Source: a virus. From it: a stretch of DNA of 20,189 nt. Every line of letters starts with the position of its first letter. The first letter of the stretch is position 1. Under the pieces are notes generated by a model that was given only the letters and a program-made list of their open reading frames with translations, had not been told where the DNA came from and ran no database searches. The stretch covers positions 1 through 20,189 of IMG/VR virus record IMGVR_UViG_3300005253_000196, one strand, 5' to 3'. Below are positions 9,438-16,964 of this stretch, piece by piece. A program made the position numbers and the translations under genes.

Positions 9438-9866
9438 CTAAAATGTCTTTGCATATAAAAACGAATCACCTTTGTCCGGACGTTGATGTTTCATTAGACC
9501 TTCCCGTCTAAATCCGAACGCCTCTATCATCTTAATAGCTTGTAGAAAGTCAGTTGCCACATAAGCCTCTGCCCTATACAAATTATTCACCTCTATCAGA
9601 TACTCCACCTTCTCTCGTATCGCGTACAAAGCCCTGAAACCGTGTATGCCGTCCTTTTTGCAATCTGCGGTCAATATCAGCCAGAACAGCCCCACGCCCT
9701 CCCAGCGAACGAACAAGCCGCCTACGGCCACAAGGGAACTCTCGTACATCACCGCATAAGTATTGCTGTCAGGAACCTCCATATATGGATAGTTCTTGAC
9801 CGCGCCCTCAAATGGGTTCTGACGGACATAAGCCAAATCTTCCTGTGTAGCAGCGCGAAAATTCAT
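9438..9866 (-). CDS. GNAT-fold virion-assembly protein, T7 gp13-like
   Basis: Start placed at ATG 9866 (142 aa), not the upstream codon at 9911, because it overlaps the nozzle stop as ATGA and the upstream extension lies inside the nozzle gene. The protein begins MNFRAATQEDLAYVRQNPFE and runs through YAVMYESSLVAVGGLFVRWE, GLFWLILT and AIKMIEAFGFRREGLMKHQR. This is the strand-strand-helix-...-FGF pattern of the acetyltransferase (GNAT) fold. T7 gp13, 138 aa, encoded directly after gp12 and needed for virion assembly, also has a GNAT-like look. The usual acetyl-CoA loop (Q/RxxGxG/A) is absent or degenerate (KDGIHGFRAL), so catalysis is doubtful. Whether it acts on a protein or only as a scaffold is unknown. 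Confidence 0.8.
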   Translation of the reverse strand: MNFRAATQEDLAYVRQNPFEGAVKNYPYMEVPDSNTYAVMYESSLVAVGGLFVRWEGVGLFWLILTADCKKDGIHGFRALYAIREKVEYLIEVNNLYRAEAYVATDFLQAIKMIEAFGFRREGLMKHQRPDKGDSFLYAKTF

Positions 9867-12800
9867 CTGCCTGTCACCTCCATCCTCGGTATAATTGCCC
9901 TCACGACACAAGGTAGCGGATCAGCCTGTGAGATAACGAGCGTGTCTTCCATATCAAAGCCACCGTCAAGGGCAACCGTAATAAGGCCACTAAACAAACC
10001 TTCAATCTCGCTGGCATTTTTCCATCTCGGATCATCCCAGTCGAAATCAAATAATGCTGCTACAGATGCACCGTATTTTGCATTTAACGTATTGTGAAAA
10101 TTGAAAGATACTTCCGGTATTTTCTTGATACTGCCGTGCGTAGTGCCTGTTGGCAAATTGATATCCAACCTCATTGGAATCGCCTGCGAAAGATAAGGTA
10201 TTCCACCTCTTACGTTTCTTGCGGCAGTTGCGAGTTCTATCTGGCCCCCGACCACCCGTTGTCTTTCCAACACTTCACCGTCCGCCAAAATTGCAACAAC
10301 TTTGTTTTCGAGATGACTGTACCCGGTTACAGTAGTTGTCGCTTCACCGCTGTAAATCGTACCGCTGTCCACAAAAAACGCATTTTCCTTCCTGACATCA
10401 AGATGTCTCGACTGGAATTGTTCAATATAAACTTTGTTATCACCGTCAACGGCCCGTACTATCGAAATCCAAACCTCATCTTCGCCCGATGCAGGGATTA
10501 CTGCAACGGACTGAACCAAACCGTCCATAGGATGTTTCGCCCACGCGATGACATTCTGTTCCCGTTCGTAACTCAGTGTAATCAAGTCCCCGTTGTCAAG
10601 AACGCACCATAGCATTGAATCGGGATTCTTCTGATGCGCCACACAGACTATCCCGGAAAACGTAATGTGTTCGGCAAGTGCAGTCAAGTCGGGGGCAACA
10701 TATTTCTGCTGGTTTTCATTGAATACAAACTCTCTTACTTTCCTGCCAACCGAATCTATAAACAACAATACCGAACCAACTTCTACTACCTGTATATTAG
10801 CACTGCCGTAAGCAGTCTGCTTCTTCATGTCCCAGTTTTTCGGAGTCAGGGCTTCGTCCAAAGGTGCTTTTATTCTCCATTCCAACCCGCCATCACCGGC
10901 AGCAAGAGTACCAAGTGAACCTAACCACTTACCGCGATTAGCGGTTGGAAGTGTCAGGGCAAACGAATCTGCATCATTCAGCCCAGCTTCAAAATCCTCA
11001 AATCTCCCCGTCTCACTTAACCAGATATCCTGCTGGTCTGAATTAGTAAATCCATAAACTACCCGCTCTTCAAAAAAGGTGACCGCAGACGGATAACCCC
11101 TTTCCCTGGACCATGCACCTTCCGCCCATCGTTTCGTATCGGTTGTTTGGCTGACTTTGGCAACTACAGTTATTTCGGCAGTTGTATTGGAAAGGATACT
11201 GTTTATACGCACAATACCCGATTGCGTGCTCGACGTAGCCGCAAGGTCCGCCTCGACGGTTCCGCTTGTATAAGCAGTTACATTTATTCGATATTGAACA
11301 TTGTCCTCTTCCTCAACTTGGGCAAATTGAACATTCCTACTGCCTACGCTGTTGGTTATTACCGACTTGTATTGTCTGTACGGTTCCCAACCTGCGTTAT
11401 CCTCGTTTCTTTCCAGTGCAACGGTAGCGTCCCAGTTCCCGTGTGTGTTAAAATTGAAATCCCCTTTTATATCCAGCGGGACACCAATTACCCCAACAGC
11501 AGTTGCGGAACCGCTAACGGAACTGGTGTTTATAGCAAGACTGGCAGCGATTGTTCCGCGTAAATGTGTAGTAACATTTATACGGTATTGAAACCCTGCC
11601 TCTGTTTCCGTAGCTTGAAATGTCGTCACGCCCGTACTAAGAAAAGTTTTTATATCTGTGCTTGTAACCCAATTGTCATCGCTTCTTTGCAATCTTACTG
11701 TTCCTATCCATTGTTCTGTGGTGATAGAAAATATATAGTCTCCGAACACATCAATTTGTTCACCTATTAAACCAATGTCGGTCCCCTCTGACCTGCCATT
11801 CGTTTGCCGATTCACACGCGGATGAGTAAGTTTGAATAATGCACCAACGTGCCCTGGTTGAAATATACCCGATGACCGGGTAAGCGTTCCTGCAGTCCCG
11901 GCAATAGTTGTATCCACGTTCATTACAACATCATCGTCGTTTGCGATATCATTTCGTTCGATAAACGGGCCTTTGTTAAAAACAATATCTTCCACTACAA
12001 AACTTGTAGGCGTTACCCTTTTCAACTGGGCCTGTGGATGCGAAGGATGGACCATCCACATAACGTCGGCACTTTGTATAGTTTGGAGTTGATACAATTC
12101 CGAGGACTCGTAATCAGTCGTTACTTCAACGTGAACCTCGGCGTCGCCTAATAGCGGGTCGCCGTCAAAATAGAACCTGGCATATTTCTCGCCAAACTCT
12201 ATAGGATACGCTATGTCAGAAGAAAATATAAACGGCATCATCCTCACCACAGGGAGCGGAGCGAGCGTATTTGGTTGTTCTATTGAAACACTTAATGTAA
12301 GCACGGAAACTACAACAGTTACATCCTGTTCTATTTCCACAGAAACAGTACTAAGAGACAGAGATAGAGACAATGCTGTCGGTTCAACAGTAACATCTAT
12401 GACAACAGAAGGAGCTTTTAGGGCAAGTGTGAGAGCCTGCACTGTCTCTTCATGTGTTTTGCTTATCGTGATAGTCGGAGCGTTCAACGTCAACGTCAAA
12501 GGCAATGCAGAAGCAAGTATCGTAGGACTGTTGTCAATATCAATAGAAGGAAGCAAAAGACTTAATGACAAAGCGAGGGCGTCCGGTTCCGGGGTCACAG
12601 GAACCTGGACCTGCTTGAAGGCGGCAACAGACATGGCCCAACCATGAGTACCGTTGTACCTGCCGCCGCCATAAACACCACCGCCATAAACACCAGTTGT
12701 CCAACTTGTCGCTACTGCACCGGCACTTGCCTGCAAAGTAAATTGGTTACTGTCGGAATATAACCCGTTATCAGTTCTGTTTAGATTCGTTCCCGATTGG

Positions 12801-13261
12801 GCAGTCGGTGCATAATCCTGGTCAGAACCTAATACTCCAACAATAACATCCCCGTCCACCGTAGTAGTAAGAGAAACTGACGGGCTGGCACTTGGCGAAC
12901 CCAGAGAGCCACCGTCAACATCCAAGGCACTTGTAAAGCCGGGAGCAACGTTATAGCTTGATACCTGAACATGAAGAGGGGCAGATACCGAATTAGACAC
13001 GCTGATTTCAAGCGCAGAACCCGTGGGTGGATTTGTCATATACCATAGTTCACAACCCACCTGTGGGAAAATAAGACGAACAAAATCAGCAAGAGTTAGT
13101 TCTACGCCATCATACGTTGGAGCGACACCGAACCGACCACCTGCAGGGCCTATGACTATACCTACAACTAAAAGCGTTGCGTTGTCTCCGCAGGTATAAT
13201 CACTCGTAAGCGGATTCGTACCCCCGACAAACCGTAAATTGTTATCAAATGTATGTGCCAA
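9863..13261 (-). CDS. Tail nozzle protein (T7 gp12 / tail tubular B-like) with a foreign N-terminal module
   Basis: A 1132-aa protein starting with TTG at 13261, directly after the stop of the preceding gene (TAATTGGC). Residues 1-216 are a beta domain (FVGGTNPLTSDYTCGDNATL, TYDGVELTLADF, YMTNPPTGSALEI) of adhesin type. Residues 226-332 are about five 22-residue AL-x-L-x-L repeats. The nozzle proper starts near 338 (VVRMMPFIFSSDIAYPIEFG). Two tandem beta-sandwich repeats follow at 500-585 and 593-675, both ending QYRINVT. Then comes the family core at 711-950 (GAWSRERGYPSAVTFFEERV, DIWLSETGRFEDF, MLWCVLDNGDLITLSYERE). The core is 795 aa, near the T7 size of 794. The usual N-terminal GGE...RRPGTRFV element is missing here and is encoded separately at 14272-14448. 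The module probably displays a binding domain on the tail. Confidence 0.88.
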   Translation of the reverse strand: MAHTFDNNLRFVGGTNPLTSDYTCGDNATLLVVGIVIGPAGGRFGVAPTYDGVELTLADFVRLIFPQVGCELWYMTNPPTGSALEISVSNSVSAPLHVQVSSYNVAPGFTSALDVDGGSLGSPSASPSVSLTTTVDGDVIVGVLGSDQDYAPTAQSGTNLNRTDNGLYSDSNQFTLQASAGAVATSWTTGVYGGGVYGGGRYNGTHGWAMSVAAFKQVQVPVTPEPDALALSLSLLLPSIDIDNSPTILASALPLTLTLNAPTITISKTHEETVQALTLALKAPSVVIDVTVEPTALSLSLSLSTVSVEIEQDVTVVVSVLTLSVSIEQPNTLAPLPVVRMMPFIFSSDIAYPIEFGEKYARFYFDGDPLLGDAEVHVEVTTDYESSELYQLQTIQSADVMWMVHPSHPQAQLKRVTPTSFVVEDIVFNKGPFIERNDIANDDDVVMNVDTTIAGTAGTLTRSSGIFQPGHVGALFKLTHPRVNRQTNGRSEGTDIGLIGEQIDVFGDYIFSITTEQWIGTVRLQRSDDNWVTSTDIKTFLSTGVTTFQATETEAGFQYRINVTTHLRGTIAASLAINTSSVSGSATAVGVIGVPLDIKGDFNFNTHGNWDATVALERNEDNAGWEPYRQYKSVITNSVGSRNVQFAQVEEEDNVQYRINVTAYTSGTVEADLAATSSTQSGIVRINSILSNTTAEITVVAKVSQTTDTKRWAEGAWSRERGYPSAVTFFEERVVYGFTNSDQQDIWLSETGRFEDFEAGLNDADSFALTLPTANRGKWLGSLGTLAAGDGGLEWRIKAPLDEALTPKNWDMKKQTAYGSANIQVVEVGSVLLFIDSVGRKVREFVFNENQQKYVAPDLTALAEHITFSGIVCVAHQKNPDSMLWCVLDNGDLITLSYEREQNVIAWAKHPMDGLVQSVAVIPASGEDEVWISIVRAVDGDNKVYIEQFQSRHLDVRKENAFFVDSGTIYSGEATTTVTGYSHLENKVVAILADGEVLERQRVVGGQIELATAARNVRGGIPYLSQAIPMRLDINLPTGTTHGSIKKIPEVSFNFHNTLNAKYGASVAALFDFDWDDPRWKNASEIEGLFSGLITVALDGGFDMEDTLVISQADPLPCVVRAIIPRMEVTGR
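12266..12586 (-). repeat. Five in-frame ~22-residue beta repeats inside the nozzle gene
   Basis: Residues 226-332 of the nozzle protein contain successive units: DALALSLSLLLPSIDID, SALPLTLTLNAPTITIS, VQALTLALKAPSVVIDV, TALSLSLSLSTVSVEIE and VSVLTLSVSIEQP. The consensus is about A-L-x-L-x-L-x-x-P-(S/T)-(V/I)-x-I. The alternating pattern predicts short beta strands in a stalk linking the N-terminal adhesin-like domain to the nozzle body. The DNA copies have diverged, so they are not recent duplicates. Confidence 0.8.
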
Positions 13262-13699
13262 TTAGTACCCTATTGCTGTCCAATAAAAGTCTTTTGAACT
13301 CCCAACTCTTGTAAATCCATTCACAGTAACTGTATGCACGGCATAAGTCTGTCCTGTAAAATTTTCAGCAATCGTAATATTAACTGAAACTATCGCATTT
13401 GGGAAAGCGTCAGCAAACGTTACTGAATTGCCTACTGCTTGTATTCCTGTTTTTAATATTAAACCTCCATCGAAAGTATGACTCTCTCCCCCGGAATACG
13501 CTGGGTCGGAAGATGCTGTTATCTGGTCGTCAACATATTTCTTATTGGCGACCCCTGCATCAACGGTTGGCGCAGCCGAGGTAGAAAACACTGCCCCGTC
13601 CAGCACCTTGCCGTCAGCAGCCAATGATACTTCCAGATACGCATTTAACTCAGTGCCCCACGTTCCGTCGGAACCGCCGGGTGATGGTTTCGTAGCCAT
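13262..13699 (-). CDS. Tail-fibre-like protein with gp53-like C-terminal domain
   Basis: A 145-aa protein with GGAG six bases before ATG 13699. Residues 8-35 (GGSDGTWGTELNAYLEVSLA) match the common start of phage fibre proteins. Residues 40-60 contain APTVDAGVANKKYVDDQI, the usual neck that joins shaft to tip. The last 70 residues (SVTFADAFPNAIVSVNITIA ... GSSKDFYWTAIGY) match the gp53-like tip fold: an early strand with F-x-x-x-FPNA and a closing YW-x-AIGY. Such tips bind the host surface as trimers. It is short for a fibre, having no shaft, and sits inside the ~2-kb block that separates the two parts of the nozzle. It may attach to the nozzle module or to another fibre. Confidence 0.82.
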   Translation of the reverse strand: MATKPSPGGSDGTWGTELNAYLEVSLAADGKVLDGAVFSTSAAPTVDAGVANKKYVDDQITASSDPAYSGGESHTFDGGLILKTGIQAVGNSVTFADAFPNAIVSVNITIAENFTGQTYAVHTVTVNGFTRVGSSKDFYWTAIGY

Positions 13700-13708
13700 G
13701 ATTATCTC

Positions 13709-14122
13709 CTACCCTGCAAGGGTTATAATACCAGCCGAGTCCCATTGTATCGTGAACGTACCCGCCACAACTACTTTTGCACCGCCGAAATCTATAGAAG
13801 CAATAAGATTATCGGTTACTGAAGTGTCATATATCACAGCATGATACGCCGTGAAAGTTGCAGTGGTCCAATTCCTGTTAGCCGCGTCCCATTTGGTTGT
13901 TACTGCTTGCGTAACGGCCTTACTTGCCAGTGTGTTGCCACCCGTAGTATAACCACTGCCAGAGGCCAATTCATTAGCAGACACGTCACCTAAAACGTCA
14001 TTGCCTGCCGTAAAAGTGTGGCTGTTGTCAAGCAATATCACCTTGATAACGTCCGCTTCTAAATCAACTTCCTTATTCATAAGATTTGCTTTGAAGCGAT
14101 TGTAAATTCCTGTCTCTGCCAT
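13709..14122 (-). CDS. Phage structural protein of the 'NRFKANLMNKEVDLEAD' family, 137 aa
   Basis: ATG at 14122 is preceded by AAGGG. The N-terminus (GIYNRFKANLMNKEVDLEAD ... VILLDNSHTF) and the C-terminus (YHAVIYDTS, SIDFGGAKVVVAGTFTIQWD, GIITLAG) are a pattern I know from many phage tail regions, where the protein is about 130-140 aa and called structural or hypothetical. Composition is beta-rich with many Thr, Ala and Asp, no Cys and no membrane segment. Probably a virion component near the tail tip or fibre base, judging by position between the nozzle N-terminal fragment and the gp53-like protein. No enzymatic motif is visible. Confidence 0.83.
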   Translation of the reverse strand: MAETGIYNRFKANLMNKEVDLEADVIKVILLDNSHTFTAGNDVLGDVSANELASGSGYTTGGNTLASKAVTQAVTTKWDAANRNWTTATFTAYHAVIYDTSVTDNLIASIDFGGAKVVVAGTFTIQWDSAGIITLAG

Positions 14123-14125
14123 GAT

Positions 14126-14275
14126 TTACCCTTTCTCGTTTTTTGCCCTAATTTGTAAACACGGAACATGCACTATCACATCTATCCGCCCGTCAGGATG
14201 ACGTATTTCTTCTGCTGTCGCTTTGATAACGCCATCCTGTACTTCCACTAATTTATCATCTATTCTTGCTTTCAT
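14126..14275 (-). CDS. Small protein, 49 aa, translationally coupled to the nozzle fragment
   Basis: ATG at 14275 overlaps the stop of the 58-aa nozzle-N reading frame (ATGA). The protein begins MKARIDDKLVEVQDGVIKAT and contains DGRIDVIVHVPCLQ. An in-frame upstream start at 14359 would lie inside the nozzle fragment and gives an unconvincing extension, so the coupled ATG is preferred. It has one Cys, an acidic/hydrophobic alternation suggesting a small beta sheet, and no recognised family. Confidence 0.6.
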   Translation of the reverse strand: MKARIDDKLVEVQDGVIKATAEEIRHPDGRIDVIVHVPCLQIRAKNEKG

Positions 14276-14448
14276 TTTGCTTCCTTTACAAACCGCGTGC
14301 CCGGTCTTCGTTCGATTACGCCATATATTCTCGGAAAGAAATTCTCCAACTTGCGACACCCGGACTTGTATTTTTCAATATCCGCCCGTGCATCGATGAG
14401 AGGAGTGACCTCCCCGCCGTTCAAGTTTATTATCGGTATATTCGCCAA
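14272..14448 (-). CDS. Detached N-terminal element of the tail nozzle protein, 58 aa
   Basis: The frame starts with TTG at 14448, immediately after the TAA of the preceding gene, and ends TGA at 14272. It reads ANIPIINLNGGEVTPLIDAR (residues 2-21), then ADIEKYKSGCRKLENFFPRI, then YGVIERRPGTRFVKEAK. The sequence G-G-E-x-x-P...R-x-D-x-x-K-Y-x-x-G-C...L-x-N-F...RRPGTRFV is the conserved opening of tail tubular protein B / nozzle proteins, where it continues directly into the body. Here the body starts 2 kb downstream, near residue 338 of the 1132-aa protein. The frame is intact, so it is either expressed as a separate chain that joins the nozzle, or a preserved remnant. No clear Shine-Dalgarno; reinitiation after the upstream stop is likely. 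Confidence 0.8.
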   Translation of the reverse strand: MANIPIINLNGGEVTPLIDARADIEKYKSGCRKLENFFPRIYGVIERRPGTRFVKEAK

Positions 14449-14817
14449 TTATCGCTCGTAAACATTAAGTACCTGGCTCTTCTGTGCAGACAATACATCC
14501 ATCTGGTCAGACAGGCTTTCCAACGTGTCACCATCTGCACCAATAAGCGTATCCGTAAAGTCCGCACCTTCAATAAGAACAGTATTTACCTCACTTCGGT
14601 ATTCACCGAAACCAACTTTATTCGTCCCGTCATCCACTACAACTACATCGCCGGCAACCATCGCGGTTGAAGGAGTGCCCTTGTAATACCCACTTACACC
14701 CACTTCCGTTTCCGTTAAACTCTGGTCAGCCGCGCCCCTTGCGCTGCCGTCCGGCTGAAACGCCGTAAAGGTTAAAGTTTCACTAACTGCCCAGCCGAAT
14801 TTGACTTCGTTTGCCAC
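14449..14817 (-). CDS. Phage structural protein, 122 aa
   Basis: Start is GTG at 14817 with AAAAGGTG about five bases upstream; no nearer ATG fits. The protein begins MANEVKFGWAVSETLTFTAF and has a beta-rich, Asp/Gly-rich body (GVSGYYKGTPSTAMVAGDVV). A C-terminal helix (GDTLESLSDQMDVLSAQKSQ) could be a short coiled coil or a docking segment. The opening V-x-Y/FG-x-x-x-x-E-T...FQPDG-x-x-R is common in phage tail regions among proteins that cap or decorate fibres. It ends exactly where the detached nozzle element begins. Unknown role; virion component inferred from neighbours and composition. Confidence 0.78.
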   Translation of the reverse strand: MANEVKFGWAVSETLTFTAFQPDGSARGAADQSLTETEVGVSGYYKGTPSTAMVAGDVVVVDDGTNKVGFGEYRSEVNTVLIEGADFTDTLIGADGDTLESLSDQMDVLSAQKSQVLNVYER

Positions 14818-14828
14818 AAAAACACCTT

Positions 14829-15434
14829 TTAAGCATAGCGAGCATCGTTCCAGGTTTCTAATTCGTACTGGCCTGCGGTGTTGGTTTCCTGTCTGTCCAA
14901 TGCCTTGACCGACGGCATTAGGTTTTTCAGATCATCCTTGAGACTTTCTCTGATTTCCGGCGTTGAACCGGCAAGAGAGGTAAGTTTCAATGCTAATTGC
15001 AAAACAAGTACCTCAATAAATAACGAGTCAAACTCGGTAACATCGGTAACGTTTTTGGTATACCTGATTGACATTGCATTTTCGTCAGTAAGAAGAAGAC
15101 TCCCTTCAAGTGCATAAGAACGAAAATTCTCGCCTGAAAATCTGTTCTCGTAAATAGACCTCATTGCCAGAAAATCATCAGGTAAATCAAAAGCGTAGTC
15201 CCATTCAAAAGCAGGAGTAGTAGTCGTTGACAGTGCTTTTCTTGCCGCAGCAAAGCGCCACGAATGCGAACGAACCAAGGCATCTCTGGTCTGTTCGTAA
15301 TGTAACCTGCACTGGACAGCTTCCAATGTGGCACTGCCCTCCACTGTTTGGCCGTCAGGTATCTTATTCGCACCAAGTTTGGCAAGGCTCATATTACAAA
15401 TGGATGTTTCGCTTAATGTCTCGCTTAATGCCAT
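14829..15434 (-). CDS. Tail adaptor / gatekeeper, T7 gp11-like (tail tubular protein A)
   Basis: A 201-aa protein with AGGAGG before ATG 15434. It shows the adaptor pattern: ICNMSLAKLGANKIPDGQTV (residues 12-31), LHYEQTRDALVRSHSWRFAA (about 44-63), then FEWDYAFDLPDDFLAMRSIY and a helical C-terminus (LFIEVLVLQLALKLTSLAGS). Length matches T7 gp11 (196 aa). This protein forms a dodecameric ring joining the portal to the nozzle. In most relatives the nozzle gene follows at once; here one small structural gene comes between it and the first nozzle fragment. The family assignment is firm on motifs and synteny. Confidence 0.9.
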   Translation of the reverse strand: MALSETLSETSICNMSLAKLGANKIPDGQTVEGSATLEAVQCRLHYEQTRDALVRSHSWRFAAARKALSTTTTPAFEWDYAFDLPDDFLAMRSIYENRFSGENFRSYALEGSLLLTDENAMSIRYTKNVTDVTEFDSLFIEVLVLQLALKLTSLAGSTPEIRESLKDDLKNLMPSVKALDRQETNTAGQYELETWNDARYA

Positions 15435-15443
15435 TACGCCTCC

Positions 15444-15893
15444 TTACTTACAATTTTGTCCCCATATCATTACTTTCGGGATATGAGCTACTTTCTTTTT
15501 CATTTCTTCGACTTCTTCCGTGTTCTGTTCTGTCCAAATATCTATATAGGCACAATCAAAGTCTCCCAACTTATACTCCCATATATCCCCACAAATAAGT
15601 TTAGCTTTCTTATGTCTTATATGTGGCCAGACTAAATCAATTACTTCCTGTGATTTCTCGATAACTGTGACGGTTTTAACATCGTCCTTGTCTTCCATCG
15701 CCTCTACGAAATAACCCAGACCCAAACCAGCTGTCAAAACTCTGCCCTTGCACTTTGCGATTACATCTTTTTGCTTCCCGGCTTCCTGAGTTGTCATTAT
15801 TGTTTCAGTGTTATTCGGTCTGCACCTCAACAATACACAGTTGTCGCCTTCGTGCGATACACGATATTCACCTTTCGTTGCCACTGGTATCAT
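15444..15893 (-). CDS. SAM-dependent methyltransferase-like protein (Rossmann, spermidine-synthase type)
   Basis: A 149-aa protein overlapping the preceding gene as ATGA at 15893-15890. It carries a class I methyltransferase core: RVLTAGLGLGYFVEAM (motif I, Gly56 to Gly60), VTVIEKSQEVIDLV (acidic Glu79 at the end of strand 2), ICGDIWEY (Asp103) and FDCAYIDIWTEQN (Asp118, motif IV position). The DIW after motif IV recalls the spermidine-synthase-like branch. It is short and seems to lack the substrate-binding lobe, ending soon after strand 5 (PKVMIWGQNCK). Active or not, its place beside a glycosyltransferase and a lectin-like protein suggests surface or saccharide chemistry; an assembly role is also possible. 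Substrate unknown. Confidence 0.78.
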   Translation of the reverse strand: MIPVATKGEYRVSHEGDNCVLLRCRPNNTETIMTTQEAGKQKDVIAKCKGRVLTAGLGLGYFVEAMEDKDDVKTVTVIEKSQEVIDLVWPHIRHKKAKLICGDIWEYKLGDFDCAYIDIWTEQNTEEVEEMKKKVAHIPKVMIWGQNCK

Positions 15894-16591
15894 ACGCCGT
15901 ATTTGTGCCTTGTCAGTTCGTAGAGATTTCTCATGTCAGTATCAGACCGTTCGTCAGTCCACACCCAGCATTGGCCTATAGTGCCTTCAAAATATCTATC
16001 CGCAGTTGCTATACGTCTTCTGCCTATAGCAAAGCTGTCAATACCTGATGGGAACGCTACATCGGTACCACCTGCCGAATCCAGATTCTCCGCGCCATCC
16101 AGATATAACTTATGAGTTGTCTCGTCCGCCTCTGGAAATACCAAACCTATTAAGTGCCATTTATTGTCGTCTATCTCATCGGCTGAAACTTTTGCTGAAG
16201 CTTTCGCACCATTCCCCAAGGCGCCTCTATTTAACCCAGTCGCATCATGCCCTAAATCAAGCCACTGAGTATCAAAGTCTTTGTCTGCTATTGATATTGT
16301 ACTGGCGGCAGCACTGACCGCATTACATTTAGCCCACGTCGCCAACGAGATAGGAAACGCGGTTACAAGGGCAAGCGTTCTCCATATAGTATGGGTGTTC
16401 GCTTTTATAAATACAAAACCGGGAAACGCAGGCGACGGAAGTCCTGTACCCCCTTCTGCAAAGCCATGACGCTGATATTGGCTGTGGTCCTGGACGAAAA
16501 CACCCCGCATAAAACCGCTATCCAAAGGCATACTAAGGACAGTGCTCGATCCCATAGGAAACTCTGGCCGTATCTTGTGTTGGATTTTCAT
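15890..16591 (-). CDS. LamG / concanavalin-A-like lectin domain virion protein
   Basis: Start set at ATG 16591 (233 aa): it follows the upstream stop by one base and has AGAGG seven bases before it. A longer in-frame version from 16777 would overlap the previous gene by 180 bases. The body shows a LamG_3-type jelly roll: VLSMPLDSGFMRGVFVQDHS near residues 18-37, a Trp/Ala-rich middle, DDNKWHLIGLVF, THKLYLDGAENLDSAGG, FAIGRRRIA, and the closing FEGTIGQCWVWTDERSDTDM. The hallmark strand pair (KWHLIGLVF...LYLDG) and GTIGxxxVW ending are clear. In virions these domains bind carbohydrate or decorate the capsid. The ATGA overlap with the methyltransferase indicates coupled translation. Confidence 0.87.
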   Translation of the reverse strand: MKIQHKIRPEFPMGSSTVLSMPLDSGFMRGVFVQDHSQYQRHGFAEGGTGLPSPAFPGFVFIKANTHTIWRTLALVTAFPISLATWAKCNAVSAAASTISIADKDFDTQWLDLGHDATGLNRGALGNGAKASAKVSADEIDDNKWHLIGLVFPEADETTHKLYLDGAENLDSAGGTDVAFPSGIDSFAIGRRRIATADRYFEGTIGQCWVWTDERSDTDMRNLYELTRHKYGV

Positions 16592-16592
16592 C

Positions 16593-16964
16593 CTAAATAC
16601 CTCTACAGGTAACAACGATTTCCCAATCCGAACCAGAATCAGGGTCGTCGCCCGGGTCAACCCGAATATCGAAAGTACCCGCAACCGGCTTGGAAAAGGC
16701 CAGGATTGTTTCAGAACTTTCCGCCAAAGAAGCGTTTGCCGAAAACTCCACACCTTCATCGTCGTCGAAATCAACATTTACTGTTTCGCTTCCCTGGGTG
16801 GTAGTGCCGACTTCGATAACCGCTTCCTGCAGAATACCGTTGATTTTCACTGAATGCGTTAATTCATCGTGTCCGCCGCCAGCCTCTATACTAAATGTAA
16901 TTTTGCGTTTCCAAACAGGGTCTCCCCTGAAATCCGGATTTCCTCTTGTTGCTCTATTCGCCAT
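16593..16964 (-). CDS. Small beta-rich virion protein, 123 aa
   Basis: Start set at ATG 16964 rather than the TTG two codons earlier, since the GGAG then lies seven bases upstream instead of one. It begins MANRATRGNPDFRGDPVWKR, then KITFSIEAGGGHDELTHSVK, an acidic middle (DFDDDEGVEF) and a final strand (DWEIVVTCRGI). Residues 60-110 resemble an Ig-like sandwich (TVNVDF ... AGTFDIRVDPGDDPDSGSDW). Probably a decoration or adaptor protein; I do not recognise a named family. It stands between the 140-aa protein and the LamG protein with very short gaps. Confidence 0.78.
   Translation of the reverse strand: MANRATRGNPDFRGDPVWKRKITFSIEAGGGHDELTHSVKINGILQEAVIEVGTTTQGSETVNVDFDDDEGVEFSANASLAESSETILAFSKPVAGTFDIRVDPGDDPDSGSDWEIVVTCRGI

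Follow-up and report, generated by a model that had tools for sequence, protein, structure and literature searches.

How does a short-tailed phage build its nozzle, the essential gate for DNA ejection, when the beginning of the nozzle gene is separated from the rest by other genes? This question is raised by an uncultured phage, the virus record IMGVR_UViG_3300005253_000196 (positions 1 to 20,189), a 20,189-base stretch that is called the window below and whose tail genes lie on the minus strand. To our knowledge, every solved nozzle of a short-tailed phage is one chain. In the window, a frame of 58 amino acids (aa), named n58, and the larger part of an 1132-aa protein, named the body, appear to share this task. 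The reading favoured here, with a probability of roughly 0.85, is that a nozzle of the T7 gp12 class is made of these two chains, joined non-covalently, and that the break is used for a receptor-binding-type gene cassette and for the fusion of a module to the body.

The two nozzle pieces of the window

The initial annotation took n58 (14272..14448, minus strand) for the conserved opening of a nozzle protein. Profile searches agree: n58 matches the nozzle family PHROG_376 (tail protein, 712 positions) at positions 5-60 with E=1.4e-16, and it did not turn out to be unrelated to nozzles. The open reading frame (ORF) of the 1132-aa protein (9863-13261, minus strand) matches the same family at positions 66-711 with E=1.1e-153, starting from its residue 339 (window 12247), practically where the body had been said to resume (near residue 338, position 12250). 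The two matches are consecutive stretches of one family profile. Nothing nozzle-like was found by the family profile search in residues 1-338 of the 1132-aa protein, which bears out the claim that it has no complete N-terminal nozzle element of its own.

The body (residues 339-1132, 9863..12247, minus strand) comprises 794 aa and by homology holds the beta-propeller, the tip, the fibre dock and the C-terminal platform; the tail nozzle of PDB entry 8ck1 was matched at E=3e-136 with an alignment profile. In the nearest unsplit relatives both segments are continuous in one ORF of 834-876 aa. This matches the 58+794 aa that are left when the intervening block is removed, as had been anticipated. 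Judged by the full-length profile, the nozzle of the window belongs to the podophage tail nozzle class (PHROG_376 / T7 gp12), split over two ORFs. One-chain encoding is usual in this family and does not define it, since the window and more than 30 relatives do without it.

The reading frame of n58 starts with TTG right behind the TAA of the upstream gene and stops with TGA at 14274-14272. In the clade, n58 begins directly at the stop of the gene upstream or close to it, and in several members its own stop overlaps the next start (ATGA). This arrangement suggests coupled translation of neighbouring cistrons.

Conservation in the window clade

IMG/VR was scanned both with the body and with n58 to collect relatives, which are numbered as L loci. 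Both pieces turned out to be present in the same gene order in eight further contigs (L044-L050 and L006), nine with the window. The contigs of this clade come from several metagenomes, with body identity to the window of 64-92%; L006, whose body is interrupted by an additional frame break, was counted for the split near n58 only (site 1 below). Five more contigs of the clade hold n58 only (L009, L013, L014, L081, L085).

Pooled pairwise ratios of nonsynonymous to synonymous differences (pN/pS) are 0.224 for n58 vs. 0.262 for the body; synonymous sites are near saturation in many pairs, and only the contrast between n58 and body is meaningful. The residues G12, D19, K26, R32, N36, P39, G43 and R48-PGT51 are invariant and identical in split and unsplit relatives. 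The N-terminal piece is kept in all contigs of sufficient extent that are split at this site, and some have two copies. On these sequence comparisons, n58 is a retained protein under purifying selection as strong as that on the body, and not a relic. A second intact nozzle was found in none of 14 related contigs of 35-46 kb, the completeness of which is unknown.

No members of the window clade were found among GenBank phages, the best body matches having about 33% identity. A scan of genome contigs with the body alignment, aimed at a host via a prophage, gave nothing. The scan of genome contigs with the N-terminal segment revealed four bacterial contigs, all with an unsplit nozzle.

Recurrence of nozzle fission in relatives

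A profile of full-length nozzles (834 positions, from alignment A3) was run over all ORFs of all loci. Relatives with and without the split, both sought in the databases, were found: in about 33 distinct contigs the nozzle is divided among two or three ORFs, each with its own start and mostly with cargo at the break, and 54 contigs, some near-identical, have an unsplit full-length nozzle. L025 and L033, with overlapping ORFs and no cargo, may be frameshift errors and were not counted.

The breaks fall at four profile positions. Site 1 (57-60) is used in the window clade and in L060, L062, L064, L067, L093, L095 and L104, and site 2 (441|442) in L063, L065, L094, L097, L111, L123 and L144; in L069, L072, L100, L108 and L116 the two are combined to give three-chain nozzles. 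Site 3 (614|617) is broken in L015 and, less clearly, in L152, a locus with an unclear start of the second ORF and a duplicated C-terminal piece. Site 4 (about 676) is broken in L059, L061 and L071. On a 74-row body tree the fewest state changes are 5, 4, 2 and 1 for sites 1 to 4 (at least 12), gains not being told from losses on this quick tree, which has Shimodaira-Hasegawa-like approximate likelihood ratio (SH-aLRT) supports only. Nozzle fission recurs well beyond the window contig, and the window split is one case of it.

Six contigs (L060, L062, L064, L067, L093, L095) have two different n58 copies and a single body. Each copy in L064 carries about 330-350 aa of fused cargo, and those of L093 carry 84 and 861 aa. 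These uncultured phages have the site-1 break in common with the window. Unlike the window, the L062/L064/L067/L093/L095 type has two N-terminal pieces, several with GLUG-like or YEN-repeat cargo at the C-terminus, and a body that has its own start codon at the break and no fused N-terminal module.

Two further observations concern the pieces themselves. A short C-terminal extension of repeated YEN/WEN-x-x-x-CYEN-type motifs is carried by n58 copies of L017 (8001-8429), L093 (5998-6414), L125 (5141-5563) and L060 (5100-5417). L152 (8159-10684) has two tandem copies of the C-terminal nozzle piece (profile 618-832), one of them with an insert of about 400 aa.

Among cultured phages, Xanthomonas phage Soumapaz has a nozzle of two ORFs (463 + 570 aa) with a TAATG overlap. 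The first nozzle piece is found at 94-100% identity in nine more Xanthomonas records: Olaya, Bolivar, Usaquen, Alcala, Fontebon, two CP2 records, 10KY502B and SAC. The two-ORF layout itself was checked in Soumapaz, and the other records were assigned by the match to the first piece. The nozzle of these phages (CP2, Olaya, Soumapaz and relatives) lies in two adjacent ORFs and so resembles the multi-ORF nozzle of the window, but the break is in the tip region (profile 204|407), no cassette lies between the pieces, and the N-terminal strands are still on piece 1. Another candidate, Pseudomonas phage UFJF_PfDIW6 (NC_070881.1 7562-10031, L153), is annotated with two nozzle ORFs. It was rejected, as its 158-aa ORF ends in an out-of-frame copy of the adjacent stretch and the two-gene nozzle looks like a local duplication or an assembly error.

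Structure and comparison with known nozzles

L066, an unsplit relative of 837 aa with 46% identity to the window body, was modelled with AlphaFold2 (AF2), with a mean predicted local distance difference test (pLDDT) score of 78. The model aligns with the solved nozzles of Carin-1 (8ck1, Z=38.1 over 620 residues), LME-1 (9efk, Z=33.4) and T7 (6r21, Z=25.4). The predicted fold of L066 is that of a nozzle, with platform, beta-propeller, tip and fibre dock. An AF2 model of the 1132-aa protein is moderate, with a body pLDDT mostly of 70-90. If profile positions are taken as about equal to L066 residues, the breaks of sites 1-3 fall between strands (56|65, 440|448 and 616|622). Beta-propeller structures of the PDB align to L066 from about residue 36-48 to about 660, so that the n58 element probably contributes, with its last strand (51-56), the first propeller strand, which closes the ring.

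Cuervo et al. reported that the N-terminal 45 residues of T7 gp12 give three strands of the C-terminal platform barrel, that the propeller of the T7 nozzle is closed by its first strand, and that the fibre docks between adaptor and nozzle (PMC6702177). The N-terminus that packs into the platform barrel of T7 gp12 is the element split off in the window phage. The initial annotation had proposed that an N-terminal strand is supplied as a separate chain. The separate chain fits both the purifying selection on n58 and the T7 structure (PMC6702177); the single strand needs revision, since the element probably comprises three platform strands and the strand that closes the propeller.

T7 gp12 (6r21) and Carin-1 (8ck1) share fold class and family with the window nozzle. 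They are one chain, whereas the window has two: about 2 kb of other coding DNA separates the segments, and the body bears a module of 337 aa. Epsilon15/phiV10-type tail proteins (PHROG_376) are among the closest named relatives, with 31-33% identity over the body; unlike in the window, their N-terminal element is read through into the body.

Cargo between the pieces and the neighbouring genes

In the order of transcription, the locus comprises the adaptor gene (201 aa), a 122-aa gene, n58, a 49-aa ORF, a 137-aa gene, a 145-aa gene and the 1132-aa gene. The cargo between the two nozzle pieces, about 2 kb, consists of the 49-aa ORF, a minor-tail-type protein, a fibre tip and the module of the 1132-aa protein, all of which lie where the initial annotation had placed them.

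The 49-aa ORF (14126..14275, minus strand), of unknown function, overlaps the n58 stop with its start (ATGA). It belongs to no family in PHROG or Pfam searches and is 52-94% conserved in the clade. The 137-aa gene (13709..14122, minus strand) encodes a minor-tail-type structural protein (phrog_644, E=2e-25); its relatives come from many actinophages as well as from other phages, and some are annotated as minor tail protein. The 145-aa fibre-tip gene (13262..13699, minus strand) has a conserved N-terminal anchor and a C-terminal Gp53-like_C domain (PF21882, E=5e-6, 27.3 bits vs. a cut-off of 24.9). In relatives its alignment is confined to the first 45-68 residues, the C-terminal tip being variable.

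The module (12248..13261, minus strand; 337 or 338 aa) is fused in frame to the nozzle body and is 60-88% conserved within the clade. It probably consists of a beta-sandwich-type domain and short LSLSLxxPSxxID-type repeats; no relative was found in Pfam, the PDB or phage records. The cargo domain of L059 was tried as a homologue and rejected as too weak (a 48%-identity patch over 29 residues, E=4e-4 for a single pairwise comparison). A function of the module as a display domain is plausible.

The gp11-like adaptor gene (14829..15434, minus strand; phrog_394 tail protein, E=1e-42; phrog_9239 tail tubular, E=4e-10) is located one gene upstream of n58, so the nozzle gene stands beside that of the adaptor, the ring that carries a nozzle. 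The 122-aa gene between them (14449..14817, minus strand) is outside the break and keeps its place in relatives, including ahead of unsplit nozzles such as that of L019. A Laminin-G/concanavalin-like protein (PF13385) is encoded at 15890-16777, two genes upstream of the adaptor. At 870-1500, between a 149-aa and a 212-aa gene, lies a degenerate pentamer repeat of about 630 bp, of GGTNN type on the minus strand, with a lag-5 identity of 0.57 vs. <=0.31 for lags 1-4. A similar array is found in the same place in the relative L160 (about 10640-11140) and is absent in the relative L159.

Cargo and insertions at the breaks of other loci

The breaks of other loci also carry cargo. A pectate-lyase-type tailspike gene (PF12708) is located inside the break in L015 and L062 (the latter the same contig as L042); by inspection, the N-terminus of this tailspike shares a WGT-LN-YL anchor motif with the 145-aa gene of the window. 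Nozzle pieces are fused to GLUG modules in L063 and L093 and, below the Pfam cut-off, to an M26/GLUG-like module in L060 and a lectin-like domain in L072. Serine-rich stalk repeats are fused to the pieces of L059, L061 and L071, as seen by inspection.

Unsplit relatives have in-frame insertions at site 1 (L131, 209 aa), site 3 (L101, L120 and L146, 260-587 aa) and site 4 (L056, L039, L135 and L142, 83-329 aa), and none was seen in them at site 2. Since three of the four break sites also take insertions, the breaks lie mostly in loops that tolerate additional domains.

HNH-like genes on the opposite strand occur in 9 of 33 split loci vs. 1 of 54 unsplit ones (Fisher p=5e-4, ignoring relatedness and unequal locus lengths). 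In four cases the gene is within about 30 bp of the nozzle end or just overlaps it. Genes of this kind beside the nozzle are those of L015 (11567-12154), L061 (4215-4715), L065 (7621-8091) and L103 (5229-5753), and others lie elsewhere in L017, L062, L063, L069, L111 and L116. A Pfam search of these genes gave a weak DUF968 match only. It is possible that such endonuclease genes are agents of cassette movement.

Proposed assembly and alternative explanations

In the proposed mechanism, neighbouring and probably coupled cistrons would yield n58, the cassette proteins and the module-body fusion. The n58 chain would carry the N-terminal strands by which, in T7, the C-terminal platform barrel is completed beside the adaptor; the first (velcro) strand of the propeller probably belongs to it as well. 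From the origin of the T7 strands and the propeller alignment of L066, n58 can be seen as a self-contained clamp of platform and propeller. It would dock on the 794-aa body non-covalently, by strand complementation, during assembly, and six copies would assemble on the adaptor, as nozzles of this class form a hexamer on a dodecameric adaptor. The break lies in a loop where inserted domains are tolerated in relatives too, and it would have been used to insert the receptor-binding-type cassette, while the 337-aa module, fused to the new N-terminus of the body, would come to the outside of the nozzle, near the adaptor and the fibre dock where T7 fibres attach. Most likely, n58 completes the nozzle non-covalently; we infer the docking, the stoichiometry, the placement of the strands and the display.

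Several points weigh against this proposal. Non-covalent joining of n58 and body is inferred by homology. Residues 1-30 of the L066 model have low pLDDT, and the packing of n58 is taken from T7. In the AF2 model of the 1132-aa protein the module has a pLDDT of 23-59, and no recognised fold can be assigned to it. The Xanthomonas isolates support the viability of a two-ORF nozzle in general and not that of the break in the window.

Introns and inteins account for some split phage genes. It is nevertheless very improbable that the pieces are rejoined into a single chain by an intron, an intein or translational bypass. An Rfam scan of the window was empty, with no intron or other RNA family, and no intein was seen at the break by eye, no intein profile having been run. 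Cargo and body share one reading frame throughout the clade, which an intron would not preserve; in L062, L064, L060, L067 and L093 the body has its own start codon at the break, and a bypass of 2 kb is implausible. An assembly or sequencing artefact, conceivable for a single 20-kb metagenomic contig, is hardly credible and in fact already refuted, since eight independent contigs repeat the layout at the body identities given above. The idea that n58 is a relic, or a peptide with a new task such as binding the adaptor, and that the body works without the N-terminal strands, gains something from the body alone being predicted with fair confidence, again against the proposed assembly; however, the selection on n58, the invariant residues common to split and unsplit relatives and the retention or doubling of the piece at site 1 make this improbable.

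The remaining alternative leaves the two-chain nozzle standing and concerns the 337-aa module, which might serve as a structural collar or as the place where the 145-aa fibre tip docks, with no role in receptor binding or display. Within the clade it is well conserved and the tip variable, as expected if the tip contacts the receptor, and the docking place of the T7 fibre would suit such a role (PMC6702177). On the other hand, the GLUG-type, lectin-like and serine-rich stalk modules and the pectate-lyase tailspike genes of other fissions look surface-exposed and adhesive. A collar or dock is a serious possibility, at somewhat less than even odds. As for the wider family, there is about an even chance that the N-terminal piece is a natural plug-in tag, which its non-covalent fit makes duplicable and fusible to different adhesins, so that one body displays mixed cargo and the nozzle is a breakable scaffold for swapping host-recognition modules at four or more loops.

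Implications

The split nozzle is a real variant of a known family; no report of it was found among open-licence papers. The T7 authors proposed a circular permutation from the N-terminal strands of the platform (PMC6702177), and natural split versions make the independence of this platform element directly testable. Repeated fission, with the pieces under selection and one of them duplicated and fused to cargo, shows which nozzle loops are free, and for displaying proteins non-covalently on phage tails the natural breaks provide split points that already exist. Annotation pipelines record nozzle pieces as small hypothetical genes and so overlook them, and host-recognition cassettes can hide within a core structural gene. 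The attachment genes at the breaks suggest that the window phage and dozens of relatives put their nozzle together from pieces and mount host-recognition parts on it.

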